A stretch of DNA of 62,021 nt from Frigoribacterium sp. CFBP 13712. Lineage in GTDB: Bacteria > Actinomycetota > Actinomycetes > Actinomycetales > Microbacteriaceae. Below are positions 3,160 through 8,766 of this stretch, piece by piece. Position 1 is the first letter of the stretch; each line of letters opens with the position of its first letter. The stretch spans positions 1 to 62,021 of the forward strand of contig NZ_JACYVH010000005.1 in assembly GCF_014842255.1 (NCBI RefSeq), in the 5' to 3' direction. A model generated the notes under the pieces. That model worked only from the letters and a program-made list of their open reading frames with translations, was not told where the DNA came from and ran no database searches. The position numbers were made by a program, and so were the translations under genes.

Positions 3160-4377
3160 TCACCTGACCCGCCGCGACGCCCAGACCTGCGCGCCGAGAC
3201 CGACCGCGATGAACCCCAGCATGAGGGCGCCCATCACGACGGCCGTGCCGCCGAGGGAACCGGCGAGCGGTGTGGCCGCTCCGCCCAGGCCAAACTGCAG
3301 CCCGCCGACGAGGGCCGCCGCCGTGCCGGGGGAGCGATGGCCGAGCGCCTGCGTCAGCGTGATGGACCCGGGGATCACCCACCCCCACCCCGCCGTGACG
3401 ATCGCCAGCGCCGGCCACACGAGCGCCGGCCCGGCACCCGAGAGAGCCCCCACGAGCACCAGCAGCGACCCCGTCGCGCAGACCGCGAGCCCGACGGTGA
3501 AGAGGTGGTCCTCGTCGAATCGCCCGATGAGCCGTCGGAACACCAGCGTCGACGCGATCATGCACGACGCGTTCGAGGCGAAGACGAGCGTGTAGAGCCC
3601 CTCGCCGAATCCGTACTCCTGCTGAAAGACGAACGACGACGTCGAGATGTACGAGAAGAAGCCGATCGTCGCCGCGCACCCGGTGATCAGATACCAGCGG
3701 AACCGTGCGATCCCGAGCAGACCGCGCATCCTTCGCAGCGACGCACCCAACGAGGCTCCGCCTTCAGGAGGCGCGGTGAGGGTCTCCGGAAGCAGTCGCG
3801 CCGCCGCGATGGCCAGCCCCGACCCCAAGACCGCCAGCACGACGAACGTGATGCGCCACGACCCGGCCGCCAGCACGGCGCCGCCGACGAGCGGGGCCAC
3901 GACCGGGCCGACCGAGTTGATGGCCGCCAGGGTGGCGAAGAGGCGGCTCCGGGTGGTGCCCGTCGTCGAGTCGCCGACCATCGCGCGGGCCGCGACGGAG
4001 CCCGCCGCGCCTCCTAGTCCTTGGAGCACCCGGGCCACGACGAGGGTGCTCGCGTCGGGTGCCACCGCGCAGGCGACCGAGGCGAGCGCGAACACCGACA
4101 TGCCGACGAGGACGATGCGCCGGCGACCCGTGCCGTCGCTGAGCGGGCCGATGACGATCTGCCCCAGCGCGAAGCTGACGAGGAAGGCCGTGAGGCTGAG
4201 CTGCACCTGCGCGGTCGAGGCTCCGAGGTCGCGGGCGATGGCCGGCAGACCGGGGATGTACATGTCGGTCGCGAACGGCGAGATGCCGACGATGAGCGCG
4301 ATGGTGAGGACCGCACCGCGCCCTCCGGGGGCCGGGGCGGCAGCGCGGGGCCGGGAGACGTCGTCGTCGCTCATCAC
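3160..4377 (-). CDS. Bcr/CflA family multidrug efflux MFS transporter
   Basis: Proton-driven export pump of the major facilitator superfamily, DHA1 Bcr/CflA group, in the inner membrane. Twelve hydrophobic segments fill the 405 residues. The first helix carries the typical FATDMYIPGLP, the loop 2-3 motif A reads GPLSDGTGRR, and GLGGAAGSVAARAMV follows in helix 4-5. Usual length for the family. The GTG at 4377 and the ATG at 4374 are both possible; a TAGGCT hexamer at 4383-4388 fits a leaderless start. The substrate is unknown. An exact copy of the repeated 10-mer GGAGGCGCGG lies inside it at 3767. Confidence 0.88.
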   Translation of the reverse strand: MMSDDDVSRPRAAAPAPGGRGAVLTIALIVGISPFATDMYIPGLPAIARDLGASTAQVQLSLTAFLVSFALGQIVIGPLSDGTGRRRIVLVGMSVFALASVACAVAPDASTLVVARVLQGLGGAAGSVAARAMVGDSTTGTTRSRLFATLAAINSVGPVVAPLVGGAVLAAGSWRITFVVLAVLGSGLAIAAARLLPETLTAPPEGGASLGASLRRMRGLLGIARFRWYLITGCAATIGFFSYISTSSFVFQQEYGFGEGLYTLVFASNASCMIASTLVFRRLIGRFDEDHLFTVGLAVCATGSLLVLVGALSGAGPALVWPALAIVTAGWGWVIPGSITLTQALGHRSPGTAAALVGGLQFGLGGAATPLAGSLGGTAVVMGALMLGFIAVGLGAQVWASRRVR

Positions 4378-4398: not shown

Positions 4399-5196
4399 TC
4401 AGAACGCCGACGATTCCAGGGTCCCGACGCGACGGGCGCGTCGCTCGAAACGCCCCCAGACGACGACCGCCGCGATGACCCAGACGACTCCGGTGCCGAG
4501 AGCGAGGGCGTAGTCGCCCCAGAACCCCTCCGACATCCCTTCGTCGACGCCGGTCCTCCCGGCTTCGATGAGGTTCGCGAGGGGAATGACACGCGCTACG
4601 AGATCTATCGGGTGCCACAGCACGCTCAGGGGGGCGACGACCCCGGCCGCCAGGGGCAGCACGTACTCTGCGATGTTGGACAGAAGCAAGCTGTCGCGGA
4701 GGGAGAGGCTGGCGGCACCGATGAGGAAGCCGATGCCGATGGCAGCCGGTGCGACGCCGATGAGCACCAGGGCGATGATGCCCCAGCTGTCTGAGCGGCC
4801 CGACGGCTGGACCACCATGAGGGTCGCGAGGAGACCGACGGTCGCGACCAGGACGCCCAGGCCGGCGACGACGGTGAAGCGACCCAGCCACGAGGCGACG
4901 GTTCCGTGCGGGGCGATGAAGAGGACCGGGGTCGTCCCCTCGAAGCGATCCTCTGCGACCAGGGTGGCGACGGCGACGCTCGCGGCGACCGAACCGACGC
5001 CGACCGACGCGGCGAGGGCGTCGCCCGCATCAGGATCGGCGGCCCCGGCACCGCTCGCCATGGCGAGGTAGAACATCGACGTCAGCAGCGGGATCACCCC
5101 GAGGCGGACCGCTCGAACGGTCGGACTGATCGACTCGGGCAGCGCCCGCCATGCGATGACCATCGCCGCGCGGTAGGTCGAACCTGCGCCCGTCAT
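4399..5196 (-). CDS. ABC-2 type permease, second subunit of the peptide-locus exporter
   Basis: Membrane subunit of an ABC-2 type exporter, 265 residues with about six hydrophobic segments (for example LGVIPLLTSMFYLAM, VAGLGVLVATVGLLATLM, LALGTGVVWVIAAVVVW). Its ATG at 5196 overlaps the stop of the preceding permease gene by the ATGA arrangement, so the two are translationally coupled; an apparent much longer frame upstream is only open sequence inside that gene. It is the last gene of the minus-strand operon that begins with the small peptide at 8202. It should dimerise with the other permease and use the ATPase encoded at 5927-6901. The substrate is not known from sequence; the peptide is the inferred candidate. 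Confidence 0.82.
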   Translation of the reverse strand: MTGAGSTYRAAMVIAWRALPESISPTVRAVRLGVIPLLTSMFYLAMASGAGAADPDAGDALAASVGVGSVAASVAVATLVAEDRFEGTTPVLFIAPHGTVASWLGRFTVVAGLGVLVATVGLLATLMVVQPSGRSDSWGIIALVLIGVAPAAIGIGFLIGAASLSLRDSLLLSNIAEYVLPLAAGVVAPLSVLWHPIDLVARVIPLANLIEAGRTGVDEGMSEGFWGDYALALGTGVVWVIAAVVVWGRFERRARRVGTLESSAF

Positions 5197-5930
5197 GCCA
5201 GCGCCAGCGTTCCGTCTCGACGCGCTCGACGGAGCGCCGTGATCAGCAGAACCCACGCGGCCGTAGCCCACAGCGCGGACATCCCCACCGACTCGAGGAG
5301 CCACACGAGAGCGACGGACCCCGTCGAGTGCCCGACGGCGACCGCCCCCACGAGCGGATGGATCGCCGCTACCGGAACGATCCACCACGGGAATGACGAC
5401 AAGGGGACGACGATCCCGCTGAGCAGCCAGATCGGGGTCAGGAGCAGCGGCTCCAGCACAGTCGCCGAGCGTGAGACCAGGAAGAACGCGGCCAGGACGA
5501 GGGCGGAGCTCATGCAGGCAAGGAACGACGCGGCCAACGAGACCAGGTCGCGGAGATCCACGTGCACGTGACCCGTCACGGCGAGCTGCAACCCGAGCGC
5601 GAGGGGGATGCCGAGGAGTCCGATGGTCGCCGCCGCCGCACACAGGCTCCCGAAGACCACGCCCGGGCGGAGGGTGCTCAAGGCCATGTGCTCGAGGGTG
5701 CCCTGGAAGCGCTGGTAGCTGATGATGCCGACAGCGGTCGTGGTCGTCGCCCAGATGCCGGCGATGGAGCCCTCGAGCCACAGCGAGGCCGTCAGGGGGG
5801 TGTCGGCACCGAGGGAGCCGAGGACACGGAGGGCGACGAAGATGCATGGTGCGACGAGCGCCTGCTGCAGGAAGAAGGGCGTCCGCAGGAGCTGCCGGGC
5901 GTGGAACAGCGTGATTCGAAGCCCGTTCAC
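5193..5930 (-). CDS. ABC-2 type permease, first subunit of the peptide-locus exporter
   Basis: Integral membrane protein of 245 residues with about six spans, resembling ABC-2 permeases of ABC exporters; the conserved stretch before the last spans reads LLTPIWLLSGIVVPLSSFPWW, a usual hallmark (SG followed by a short amphipathic loop). It begins within the last codons of the ATPase gene (4-base overlap) and ends in a 4-base overlap with the next permease. The two permeases are distantly alike in layout rather than copies, pointing to a heterodimeric channel. Works in the cytoplasmic membrane. Confidence 0.83.
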   Translation of the reverse strand: MNGLRITLFHARQLLRTPFFLQQALVAPCIFVALRVLGSLGADTPLTASLWLEGSIAGIWATTTTAVGIISYQRFQGTLEHMALSTLRPGVVFGSLCAAAATIGLLGIPLALGLQLAVTGHVHVDLRDLVSLAASFLACMSSALVLAAFFLVSRSATVLEPLLLTPIWLLSGIVVPLSSFPWWIVPVAAIHPLVGAVAVGHSTGSVALVWLLESVGMSALWATAAWVLLITALRRARRDGTLALA

Positions 5931-6901
5931 GGCGCTGATGTCCCGACTCGTTCTCGATGCGTCCGCAGGAAGGCCAGGTACGCCTCCTCCAGGGTCGTCG
6001 GTCTCGTGACGGAGGCCCGGACGTCGGCCAGGGAGGCGAGGAAGGCCGGTGCGGCGGGATCACGGCCGTGCTCCCAGACGAGGTCGACGTACCAGAGTCC
6101 CCGCCGCTCCTCGCTGATGATGTCCGCTGTTCCGAGGACGGACCGGAACATAGGCCGGGGATCTGCCCGCGACTCGACGGTGAGGGTCGTCACGGTGCCG
6201 ATCCCCGCGCGGGCCGCGATGTCGGAGGGGGCCCCCTCCGCGACGACGAGACCATCCGAGATGATCACGATGCGATCAGCGAGGTCGTCGGCGTCGGTGA
6301 GATCGTGCGTGGTCAGAAGGACCGCCTTGCCCGAGGCCCGCAGCTCACGGATCAGCCCGCGGAGGTCTTCGGCGCCTTCAGGGTCGAGCCCGATGGACGG
6401 CTCGTCGAGGAGGATGAGCTCGGGCTCTGCGAGGAGCGCTCTCGCGAGATGCAGGCGTTGCCTCATGCCCCTGGAGTAGGTCTCGACCCTGCTGTCTCGA
6501 CGATCGGAGAGGCCGACGCGGGCGAGCACCTCGACGATCCGCTGCCGTAGGGCGCGTCCGTGTACTCCCTGGAGCTCCCCGAAGAAACGGAGGTTCTCGA
6601 CGGCACTGGCCCGCATGTAGAAGCCCCGGTCGCCTCCGAGCACCAGCCCCAGGTGACGGCGAGCTGCGCGAGGGTCGGCGACAGCATCGATGCCTGCGAC
6701 TCGGACGGAGCCGCGCGTGGGCTCGAGCAACGTCGCCGCCATCTTGACCGTGGTGGTCTTGCCGGCGCCGTTCGGGCCGAGGACGGCGACGACTTCGCCG
6801 GCGCCGATGGAGAGGTCGACCCCGCGGACAGCCTCGATCGATCCTGCCGACGTCCGGAAGCTGCGTCGTGCCTCTCGCACGTCGAGGATCGGGTCGCTCA
6901 T
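5927..6901 (-). CDS. ABC transporter ATP-binding protein of the peptide-locus exporter
   Basis: ATPase that powers the two permeases downstream. Walker A GPNGAGKTT (about residues 41-49), signature YSRGMRQRL, Walker B LILLDEPS and the switch histidine in TTHD are intact. After the nucleotide-binding domain a C-terminal extension of about 100 residues (from about 225) contains a small beta-rich module, as in ABC-2 type drug or antibiotic exporters (DrrA/NatA-like). It overlaps the upstream TPR gene stop by four bases. No peptidase C39 domain is present, so any leader removal on a peptide substrate would need another protease. Confidence 0.88.
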   Translation of the reverse strand: MSDPILDVREARRSFRTSAGSIEAVRGVDLSIGAGEVVAVLGPNGAGKTTTVKMAATLLEPTRGSVRVAGIDAVADPRAARRHLGLVLGGDRGFYMRASAVENLRFFGELQGVHGRALRQRIVEVLARVGLSDRRDSRVETYSRGMRQRLHLARALLAEPELILLDEPSIGLDPEGAEDLRGLIRELRASGKAVLLTTHDLTDADDLADRIVIISDGLVVAEGAPSDIAARAGIGTVTTLTVESRADPRPMFRSVLGTADIISEERRGLWYVDLVWEHGRDPAAPAFLASLADVRASVTRPTTLEEAYLAFLRTHRERVGTSAP

Positions 6902-8061
6902 GCGCTTAGCCGGAGGACCCCGGACGGGTCCATCGACAGACGTTCAAGAACCGCCTGAGCGGCCGCATCGTCGCCGGCGCGGGCATGAGCGGCCACCAGG
7001 TTCCGTCGGACGCTGGTCAACCGGCTCGGAGCCCCCTCGTCGATGATGATGGCTTCTGCTTCGGTCAGGAGTGCTGCGGCGTCAGACCATCGACCACATC
7101 GGTAGTGGAGATAACCCGCCAGCGCCATCGCCTCTGAGATCGACTCATTGTGGTGCGCACGTGTCCAGGCCAGGTGCTCATCGAGCTTCAGGCTGGCGAC
7201 TTGCAGACGGTGTTCGTCCTGCGCGGTCAACTGAGCCCTGTTGACCCGGACCTGAGCCAGGTACCGGCGACGGTGGTCGTCGTCGACCATGACGACATCG
7301 CCTTCGTCGAGGTGGGCCTCTGCTTCCAGGAGGAGACGGGCCGCCTCTACCTCGGCACCACGGTGCACCGACGTCAGCGCCTCAAGATTGAACGTGACTC
7401 CTGCCAGCGCGCTTCTGTCGGCGGGGGCGAGTCGACGTTGTTGGACTGCGCGGTCGAGACGGCGTCGTTCGGCCCGAAGGATCGCAGCGGCCTGCTCGTG
7501 TTGCCCTCGCCGCTTCGTCAGCCAAGCGGCGCGTCGCACCGTGCTCATGCAGGACTCGGCGTCGGTGACCCATGTCGCCGCGGTGAGATGAGCGAAGACT
7601 CGCTCGGTGCGGTCGTCTCGGATCGCCGCCAGGGCTGTGCCCAGATACGTCAGCGAACGGAGGGTTGCGGGGAGCTTGTCGGAATCGACGATGAATTGGG
7701 CGAGAGCACCGGCATCGTCCCAGAGCCCGGCGAAGTTGATCATGCAGTCCAGATGCCCGGCGAGGTCTGCGTCGGACAGCTCGCCGGCGATCCAAGCGCG
7801 GGAGACGCTGTCCGGCCGGAAAGCGCTCCGTGCCTCAATCGCATCGACCCCCACTAGCCTCGCCGCGTCGACGAGGTATTGCCCGGGGTCGTCGCTCCGG
7901 CGGAGTCCGAGATCACTCGCGTAGTTCGGGGCCCGGTGCGTGCGGGTCAGGGGAACCGCCGCCAAGCGTGCGATGGCGGAACGTTCACGAAGCGCTGGCG
8001 TGACCGCGCCATCAACAGAGGACAGGTGATCAGCGAGTCGGGTCAGAGTTGTTTCGAGCAT
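6898..8061 (-). CDS. TPR-like helical repeat protein of the peptide locus
   Basis: A 387-residue all-helical protein without signal peptide or membrane span. The second half has degenerate helix-turn-helix repeats like TPRs (AWLTKRRGQHEQAAAILRAE, LHYRCGRWSDAAALLTEAEA, RNLVAAHARAGDDAAAQAVL). No catalytic motif and no clear DNA-binding domain were seen. Start at ATG 8061, with GGAAG about ten bases upstream. It follows the 26-residue peptide gene and its hairpin, and overlaps the ATPase gene by ATGA. TPR proteins that bind short peptides (Rap, PlcR, Rgg types) are a known theme, so a role as peptide sensor, chaperone or immunity factor is inferred, not shown. Confidence 0.72.
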   Translation of the reverse strand: MLETTLTRLADHLSSVDGAVTPALRERSAIARLAAVPLTRTHRAPNYASDLGLRRSDDPGQYLVDAARLVGVDAIEARSAFRPDSVSRAWIAGELSDADLAGHLDCMINFAGLWDDAGALAQFIVDSDKLPATLRSLTYLGTALAAIRDDRTERVFAHLTAATWVTDAESCMSTVRRAAWLTKRRGQHEQAAAILRAERRRLDRAVQQRRLAPADRSALAGVTFNLEALTSVHRGAEVEAARLLLEAEAHLDEGDVVMVDDDHRRRYLAQVRVNRAQLTAQDEHRLQVASLKLDEHLAWTRAHHNESISEAMALAGYLHYRCGRWSDAAALLTEAEAIIIDEGAPSRLTSVRRNLVAAHARAGDDAAAQAVLERLSMDPSGVLRLSA

Positions 8062-8084
8062 CGGTGCACTTCCAAAGACGAGAA

Positions 8085-8114
8085 AGGCGGGTGCAGTTCG
8101 TTCTGCACCCGCCT
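8085..8114 (-). terminator. Hairpin with T-rich tail between peptide gene and TPR gene
   Basis: Perfect 12-base-pair stem (AGGCGGGTGCAG and its complement) with a six-base loop, starting eight bases after the peptide stop codon. On the transcribed (minus) strand it is followed by TTTCTCGTCTTT. This has the form of an intrinsic terminator placed inside an operon: it would stop most transcripts after the peptide and let a fraction continue into the exporter genes. Confidence 0.75.
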
Positions 8115-8121
8115 GATGGTT

Positions 8122-8202
8122 CTAGTGACGCCAGCCGACCTGGCTGATTCTGAAGACTGCCGTGGTGTTCTCGAGCTCACGGACGATGGTCGCGATATCC
8201 AT
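8122..8202 (-). CDS. Small peptide gene, 26 residues; candidate secreted peptide precursor
   Basis: A very short gene: ATG at 8202, TAG at 8124-8122. The product starts MDIATIVREL and ends SQVGWRH; it has no cysteine, no double-glycine leader motif and no signal peptide. Three things support translation: a near-perfect ribosome site (GAGAGGAGG, six bases from the ATG), a strong promoter just upstream, and an intrinsic-terminator-like hairpin directly after the stop. It heads an operon with a TPR-like protein and an ABC exporter, the usual layout for exported or signalling peptides, but no modification enzyme is in sight. The charged middle (RELEN) and aromatic/basic tail (GWRH) might be leader and core. 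No family was recognised. Confidence 0.7.
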   Translation of the reverse strand: MDIATIVRELENTTAVFRISQVGWRH

Positions 8203-8232
8203 AGTTTCCCTCCTCTCATGTCAATACGAACG

Positions 8233-8261
8233 ACCGTAAGAGATATCGGATGCTATGTCAA
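8233..8261 (-). promoter_or_regulatory. Strong housekeeping-type promoter of the peptide operon
   Basis: On the minus strand a consensus -35 TTGACA (8261-8256) is followed after exactly 17 bases by TACGGT (8238-8233). The start of transcription would fall about 25 bases before the peptide ATG. It is the best -35 match in the window and stands in a locally AT-richer patch. Confidence 0.7.
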
Positions 8262-8456: not shown

Positions 8457-8485
8457 AAGGGGCGGGCGCACTGCGCCCGCCCCTT
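8457..8485. terminator. GC-rich hairpin terminator
   Basis: AAGGGGCGGGCGCA and its perfect complement, almost back to back, so a stem of ten or more base pairs with a small loop. It lies 18 bases beyond the stop of the minus-strand membrane protein gene and has TTCTTCT on the plus-strand side, so it may work in both directions. Confidence 0.65.
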
Positions 8486-8502
8486 CTTCTAGACCCGGAG
8501 GG

Positions 8503-8766
8503 TCAGCGCTTGCTGCGACCCGTGATGAGGCCGTAGACGAACAGCACGACGACCGCGCCGACGATGGCGATCAGCCACGACTCGATCGAGAAGAAGCCGT
8601 TGAAGTCGACGCCGAAGAGCGCGCCGCCGATCCAGCCGCCGAGCAGGGCGCCGATGACGCCGAGCACGAGGGTGGCGATCCAGCCGCCGCCCTGACGGCC
8701 CGGGAGGATGGCCTTGGCGATGGCGCCGGCGATGAGGCCGAGGAGGAGGAAGGCGAGGAAGCTCAT
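8503..8766 (-). CDS. GlsB/YeaQ/YmgE family stress-response membrane protein
   Basis: Small integral membrane protein of 87 residues with three hydrophobic helices: FLAFLLLGLIAGAIAKAIL, TLVLGVIGALLGGWIGGAL and WLIAIVGAVVVLFVYGLI. The PGRQGGGW loop after helix 1 and the glycine-zipper second helix are typical of this family, which is linked to general stress or transglycosylase-associated roles. The ATG at 8766 is chosen (AAAGG nearby); an upstream start at 8802 would add an unlikely polar leader. Stands alone. Confidence 0.85.
   Translation of the reverse strand: MSFLAFLLLGLIAGAIAKAILPGRQGGGWIATLVLGVIGALLGGWIGGALFGVDFNGFFSIESWLIAIVGAVVVLFVYGLITGRSKR

Follow-up and report, generated by a model that had tools for sequence, protein, structure and literature searches.

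The 62,021-nt stretch of contig NZ_JACYVH010000005.1 from Frigoribacterium sp. CFBP 13712 that was analyzed here (the window) contains a short peptide gene directly upstream of a gene for a tetratricopeptide repeat (TPR) protein. Judged by sequence comparison, this cassette is a conserved peptide-TPR pair in actinobacteria for which no known family was recognized. The peptide gene (8202-8122) has 26 codons, codes for MDIATIVRELENTTAVFRISQVGWRH with a W-x-H end, and is supported by the reading of the open reading frame (ORF), by conservation, and by profile and pattern searches. The second gene (8061-6898) encodes a TPR-superhelix protein of 387 aa, a putative peptide receptor according to structure models and homologues. 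All elements of the operon are read on the minus strand, and coordinates are window positions. The occurrence of the pair in distant actinobacteria, beside either an ATP-binding cassette (ABC) transporter or a regulator, suggests an undescribed peptide-control system. By analogy, the cassette may be a peptide-receptor control module that works like Rap/Phr, a reading whose probability is put at about 0.45.

The short ORF is conserved together with the TPR gene. We counted 23 genomes with a TPR homologue. Five belong to the window's family and two to that of genome G698; the other sixteen belong to a family of metagenome assemblies labelled Bifidobacteriaceae bacterium or Micrococcales bacterium, which we take to be from the termite gut judging by isolate naming (L039 is taken to represent G600 in this count). 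An earlier reading of the letters (the sequence-only reading) had made its proposal depend on a conserved short ORF beside TPR homologues, and in 22 of these genomes such an ORF immediately precedes the TPR gene. The peptides are about 26-37 aa long, with a tryptophan near the C-terminus that is constant in all 22. The W-x-H motif is present in 19 of them (W-T-Q occurs in L020 and L039, and W-T-P in L011) and is separated from the stop by 0 to 5 residues. The C-termini include SGWNH, MPWAH, AGWNHGAKI, AGWNHGAAMY, AWAHQSPR and AAWTHGDIK, and that of the window peptide is VGWRH. The N-terminal half is partially conserved.

Selection on the ORF was assessed in 15 termite-gut sequences (105 pairs). 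The mean proportion of synonymous differences (pS) is 0.68 and that of nonsynonymous differences (pN) is 0.16, giving a pN/pS of 0.24. The differences fall on the three codon positions as 694/455/1583, with 1,583 of 2,732 at the third, and the two other frames have the opposite pN/pS pattern. By these measures, the termite-gut short ORFs are under purifying selection. A pattern requiring a short ORF, a C-terminal W-x-H and a permissive ribosome site was run over 535,694 strand-bases (the window and 16 loci). Of its 15 matches, 13 lie immediately upstream of a TPR homologue and 2 lie elsewhere; it missed 3 of the 16 ORF-carrying sequences. Many of the 13 matches come from close relatives and are therefore not independent.

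Profile searches give a similar result. In a leave-one-out test among the six non-termite peptides, five rank above all non-family segments (E 0.0038 to 1.4e-6). The profile of all six, the window's included, places 8 of 10 termite-gut peptides above all non-family segments (best E 3.6e-4); this recovery across lineages strengthens the apparent link between the two peptide groups, not the functional reading. The full profile, run against nine genomes, has one strong match in each of eight, all beside the TPR gene, and none in G246. Since this profile was trained on the same or near-identical peptides, the informative part is the weak next best match (E 0.07). No second peptide copy was found in the window's own genome, where the next best profile match has an E of 1.09. 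Selection, the pattern scan and the profile recoveries rule out a chance ORF, and the upstream ORFs, selection and the pattern scan together support the short ORF as a genuine conserved gene linked to the TPR gene.

The gene that follows the TPR gene differs by lineage. ABC ATPase and permease homologues follow it in all six readable non-termite loci (window, L006, L007, L008, L048, L070); L071 is cut off before the genes after TPR. A NarL/LuxR-type regulator with receiver and LuxR-type domains follows it in all 14 readable termite-gut loci according to tblastn, and the domains were verified by Pfam in two of these, L027 and L029. Permease 1 of the window has no match in the 18 termite-gut genomes, a negative obtained without a positive control. 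Because the next gene changes with lineage, the stable unit is the peptide and the TPR protein; on this comparison, the pair is the conserved core and the transporter and the regulator are alternative neighbors. An exporter as obligatory partner, as the sequence-only reading had it, is not upheld, since the termite-gut family has the regulator instead. In that family the peptide gene runs into the TPR gene, with a GTGA or ATGA overlap in all 16 cases. The TPR stop lies within TTGTCTGA in 13 of 14 loci and within TTGTCTAA in L038, and this sequence offers the regulator a candidate overlapping TTG start, as checked in part of the loci. A GluQRS gene comes after the regulator in 13 of the 14 readable loci (L029:8095-9156 and counterparts), which probably reflects a common location and not a common function.

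The TPR assignment, which the sequence-only reading had made, is borne out by structure models even though Pfam and NCBIfam have no match for the window protein or for its peptide. Models of the window protein (mean pLDDT, the predicted local distance difference test, 70) and of a termite-gut homologue (mean pLDDT 85) both consist of helical-hairpin repeats. Among the best 50 Protein Data Bank (PDB) rows for each model, most are TPR superhelices, several with bound peptides; they include LGN, kinesin light chain, PEX5, RapI, NprR, Rap of phage Phi3T and Rap of plasmid pLS20, and Rap-Phr complexes are among them. The structural match is to the TPR fold in general as modeled, not to Rap specifically. 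Searched with a profile, the PDB sequences yielded 14 hits at E <= 1, and Rap, NprR, PlcR, PrgX, Rgg and AimR are absent from these; the best TPR profile match among 13 homologues scanned has an E of 5.5e-4. From residue 167 on, fourteen polar residues are kept in at least 10 of 11 aligned homologues (R176, K183, R184, D215, N225, R266, Y267, Q270, N274, Q277, S309, E310, R347 and R352). On the helices of the window model they sit on the presumed first helices of the TPR hairpins, and the second helices retain only alanines and E342. The inner groove of a TPR superhelix is lined by such first helices, so a conserved ligand in the groove can reasonably be inferred.

The elements listed in the sequence-only reading are present at their minus-strand positions, with some corrections. 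A promoter-like pair read in the sequence consists of TTGACA (8261-8256), a 17-base spacer and TACGGT (8238-8233). It had been called a consensus promoter; the pair is in place, but TACGGT is identical to TATAAT at 3 of 6 positions. A stock scan of the window for consensus promoters and terminators reports neither at the peptide operon, and the pair is recovered by a TANNNT-type pattern. The Shine-Dalgarno sequence AGGAGGG (8214-8208), 5 bases ahead of the ATG at 8202, is the near-perfect ribosome site that had been described, and the 81-base gene for the 26-residue peptide follows it as proposed. The ribosome site of the ORF is good in L007 and L070 and weaker in L008, L048 and L071. After the TPR gene come a DrrA-like ABC transporter ATPase (6901-5927; supported by Pfam, below the DrrA family cut-off) and two ABC-2 type permeases, permease 1 (5930-5193) and permease 2 (5196-4399), each with 6 transmembrane-like segments and a Pfam match slightly under the cut-offs. 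The order TPR-ATPase-permease-permease is as claimed, but the couplings are ATGA, GTGA and ATGA in turn, not all ATGA.

A GC-rich 12-bp hairpin with a short T-rich tail (8114-8085), resembling a terminator or attenuator, starts 7 bases past the stop of the window ORF. Its stability exceeds that of its mononucleotide shuffles (z -3.84), but its T-tract is weak, and as a terminator it escapes the stock scan; the terminator-like hairpin of the sequence-only reading stands as a hairpin. It has a GC-rich counterpart in every one of the six non-termite loci with the ORF (window, L007, L008, L048, L070, L071), beginning 5 to 14 bases past the peptide stop, at -23.6 to -31.5 kcal/mol and with z against mononucleotide shuffles from -6.39 (L007) to -1.72 (L008). 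The further claim of an attenuator is not supported: an attenuator with two states should have mutually exclusive structures that tie translation of the ORF to the terminator, and such alternative pairing was not found in these six loci, where pairing of the 5' arm with the ORF region does not exceed dinucleotide shuffles (z -1.25 to +0.98). Antiterminator pairing was rejected for the same loci on this basis.

In the proposed mechanism, the peptide would occupy the groove inside the TPR superhelix, probably with its W-x-H end, and alter how the protein interacts with its partners. Where a regulator is the neighbor, the TPR protein would act on the NarL/LuxR-type protein as RapF acts on ComA. 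Where a transporter is the neighbor, the hairpin may halt most transcripts after the peptide gene and so yield an excess of peptide, and the TPR protein may regulate, load or be co-regulated with the ABC transporter. The transporter may export the peptide or be the controlled output. A wider and more tentative version is that the cassette represents a cytosolic peptide-TPR signaling class of Actinomycetota, independent of RRNPPA, with a signal-less W-x-H peptide that a Rap-like superhelix would read, an output swapped between regulator and transporter, and possibly its own exporter; this is doubtful at present.

Several results weigh against the Rap/Phr-like reading. The window peptide itself is missed when it is left out of the training set (rank 30, E 8.7, among 6,215 six-frame segments), so that its membership rests on its place, ribosome site, length, hairpin and W-x-H. 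The profile of six termite-gut peptides places zero non-termite peptides above background. Genome G246 (locus L006) retains the TPR and ABC genes without a peptide gene upstream, and the peptide profile finds no match in that genome (best E 0.94). A Sec-like hydrophobic stretch is absent from all seven peptides subjected to a hydropathy test, in which the highest 12-residue Kyte-Doolittle mean is 0.79; the secreted peptide of the sequence-only reading is unsupported as stated. A TANNNT-type promoter pair within 130 bases upstream is present in one of the five other non-termite loci (L048). The hairpin of L008 is hardly distinguished from its shuffles by the z given above, and those of L008, L070 and L071 have no T-run; termination at these loci is therefore inferred. 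The window model is unreliable over residues 1-80, which are mostly below pLDDT 50, and the Rap/NprR rows from Foldseek (TM 0.31-0.54) are no better than those of other TPR proteins.

The main rival explanation is leader-peptide attenuation, in which a ribosome stalled on the ORF would block termination at the hairpin and turn on the TPR-ABC operon. Sensor leaders of this kind include tnaC, which serves tryptophanase. The good ribosome site, the hairpin close behind the stop in six of six loci and the ABC transporter downstream all agree with such a leader, and bmrB of Bacillus subtilis, which precedes bmrCD, is a precedent in the portion of the source available (PMC4191407). However, the pairing of the 5' arm with the ORF stays within dinucleotide shuffles in the six loci, and the varying distance from W-x-H to the stop means that the motif has no fixed position in the ribosome. 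The termite-gut family also keeps the peptide, although the overlap of the peptide stop with the next start by 4 bases (16 of 16 cases) leaves no room for a hairpin, and it has a different downstream gene. The partial conservation of the N-terminal half is a further point against a leader, and this explanation is considered unlikely.

The peptide could instead remain in the cell as a small, non-secreted subunit that serves the TPR protein structurally or as a regulator. The hydropathy result, the tight peptide/TPR gene overlap in the termite-gut family and the absence of a permease 1 match there (0/18, again without a positive control) are all in keeping with a subunit. A hairpin between the two genes in six loci would, however, decouple the dose of peptide from that of its receptor, and the hairpin-bearing lineages are those in which an ABC transporter adjoins; a subunit is considered quite unlikely. 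With regard to an exported product, no modification enzyme or leader peptidase for a ribosomally synthesized and post-translationally modified peptide (RiPP) was found with Pfam in seven window proteins (the operon and two flanking genes) or in ten neighbor proteins of L027, L029, L030 and L048, a subset of ORFs, some on short contigs; this agrees with the sequence-only reading, which had recognized no modification enzyme, C39 peptidase or known family. Export of the peptide as an effector (bacteriocin-like or a RiPP precursor), with the ABC transporter as exporter and the TPR protein as accessory or immunity factor, is the least probable of the three. The DrrA-like ATPase, the two ABC-2-like permeases and a sporadic presence in the window's family (4/398 genomes), as for traits under local selection, make it fit the window. 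It does not fit the termite-gut family, where 16 of 18 genomes have the cassette and the readable loci contain a regulator but lack ABC genes, and the peptides are small and mostly acidic or neutral (net charge -4 to +1 in six of seven; +6 in L048).

The distribution of the TPR family was sampled at several levels, with the window's own genome counted wherever it was drawn. Homologues are present in 4 of 398 genomes sampled from the family of the window, 2 of 16 from its genus, 17 of 396 from its order, 2 of 150 from the family of G698 and 16 of 18 from the termite-gut family; in a phylum-wide sample of 396, the single genome with a homologue was the window's own. A genome collection queried with the window TPR protein alone gave zero relatives; when termite-gut homologues were aligned and used as the query, 14 named loci came up, two of which (L037 and L039) stop before the downstream gene would be visible. 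From these counts, the TPR proteins seem to be rare beyond the three bacterial families in which they were found. A mobile-element origin was rejected, as plasmid and phage records hold no TPR relative and viral contigs hold none with profile A1. Explanations of the window TPR protein by a known family were rejected after Pfam, NCBIfam, PADLOC and PHROGs all gave no match.

The operon adjoins a Bcr/CflA-type major facilitator superfamily (MFS) gene (window 3160-4377) that is present in 16 of 16 congeners. The 1.5-kb flanks of the MFS gene in the 15 other congeners have no TPR, ATPase or permease match, and the operon beside it appears to be a local gain or loss. In another genome of the genus (G1157, locus L070), the TPR protein is 37% identical and lies on a different contig from the MFS gene; a copy so diverged and off the MFS contig points to separate acquisition. 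The TPR homologue of G698 (L048 / L024) has an in-frame TGA near the N-terminus, which may indicate a pseudogene, a sequence error or another start, and the alignment used only the portion past this codon. On the minus strand of L006 at about 9490-9370, where a peptide gene would sit, there is a GC-rich GGCGCGGGCC-like repeat array. Upstream of the window operon and on its strand is a gene for a small transglycosylase-associated membrane protein (8503-8766), followed by a GC-rich inverted repeat near 8458-8490.

If the proposed mechanism is true, actinobacteria would own a version of the cytosolic TPR receptors for genome-encoded peptides, which are described from Bacillota and the mobile elements of these, with a short C-terminal W-x-H code that could be synthesized and tested. 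The two architectures would amount to a natural experiment, with the output of a single sensor being a regulator in one and a transporter in the other. If the peptide instead proves to be a subunit inside the cell, it still comes from a conserved gene of very small size, whose window member is matched by neither Pfam nor NCBIfam. In the available portion of a 2023 survey, actinobacterial communication signals are described as typically enzyme-made small molecules (PMC10075063). RRNPPA is treated as a family of Firmicutes/Bacillota and their mobile elements in the accessible parts of PMC10075063, PMC9765709 and PMC12700828, and in those of the latter two the terms searched for actinobacteria do not occur. 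An actinobacterial peptide-TPR system was not found among the matches listed for the open-licence literature, judged by titles and the starts of abstracts.

The cassette resembles bmrB-bmrCD in that a short ORF and a stem-loop precede an ABC transporter. In the portion of PMC4191407 available, BmrB is translated and acts as the transporter's regulatory leader, and the bmrB terminator lies inside the coding region, where there are three alternative stem-loops. In contrast, the cassette hairpin lies past the stop, no alternative pairing was found for it, and the peptide is kept where the hairpin is absent. A second likeness is to SIP/RopB, where leaderless communication peptides without a secretion signal are encoded beside the receptor gene (PMC10518010, in part); the cassette peptide likewise has no secretion signal and its gene lies beside that of a putative receptor. 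However, SIP is an 8-residue peptide whose receptor activates transcription, whereas the cassette peptides have about 26-37 residues and a constant tryptophan near the C-terminus.

The RRNPPA signature, as given in the available part of PMC10075063, is a propeptide of 10-100 aa directly beside the gene of a receptor of 250-500 aa, secreted by Sec or, for the short hydrophobic type, by PptAB, with the peptide then taken up again to bind the receptor, and the published detector uses a TPR profile match at E < 1e-5. The cassette has the adjacent peptide of this size and a receptor of 387 aa within the range. Secretion of the Sec/PptAB type is not indicated by hydropathy, the best TPR profile match does not reach the detector threshold although the models have the fold, and no homology to Rap, NprR, PlcR, PrgX, Rgg or AimR was found. 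With these parts of the signature lacking, the cassette is not an RRNPPA member by the published signature, but by analogy it may still function like one. Within the available text of PMC3246441, RapF inhibits ComA, a regulator of the LuxR/FixJ/NarL family, and PhrF releases it. The cassette differs from Rap-Phr in its phylum, in a peptide without a Sec-type stretch, in the lack of detected Rap sequence similarity, in a peptide gene that lies upstream of, and in one family overlaps, the receptor gene, and in the ABC transporter as alternative partner. It resembles RapF-PhrF-ComA in that a small peptide gene adjoins the gene of a TPR-superhelix protein of 250-500 aa without a recognized DNA-binding domain, and the termite-gut triad consists of a peptide, a TPR protein and a NarL/LuxR-type regulator of the ComA class.

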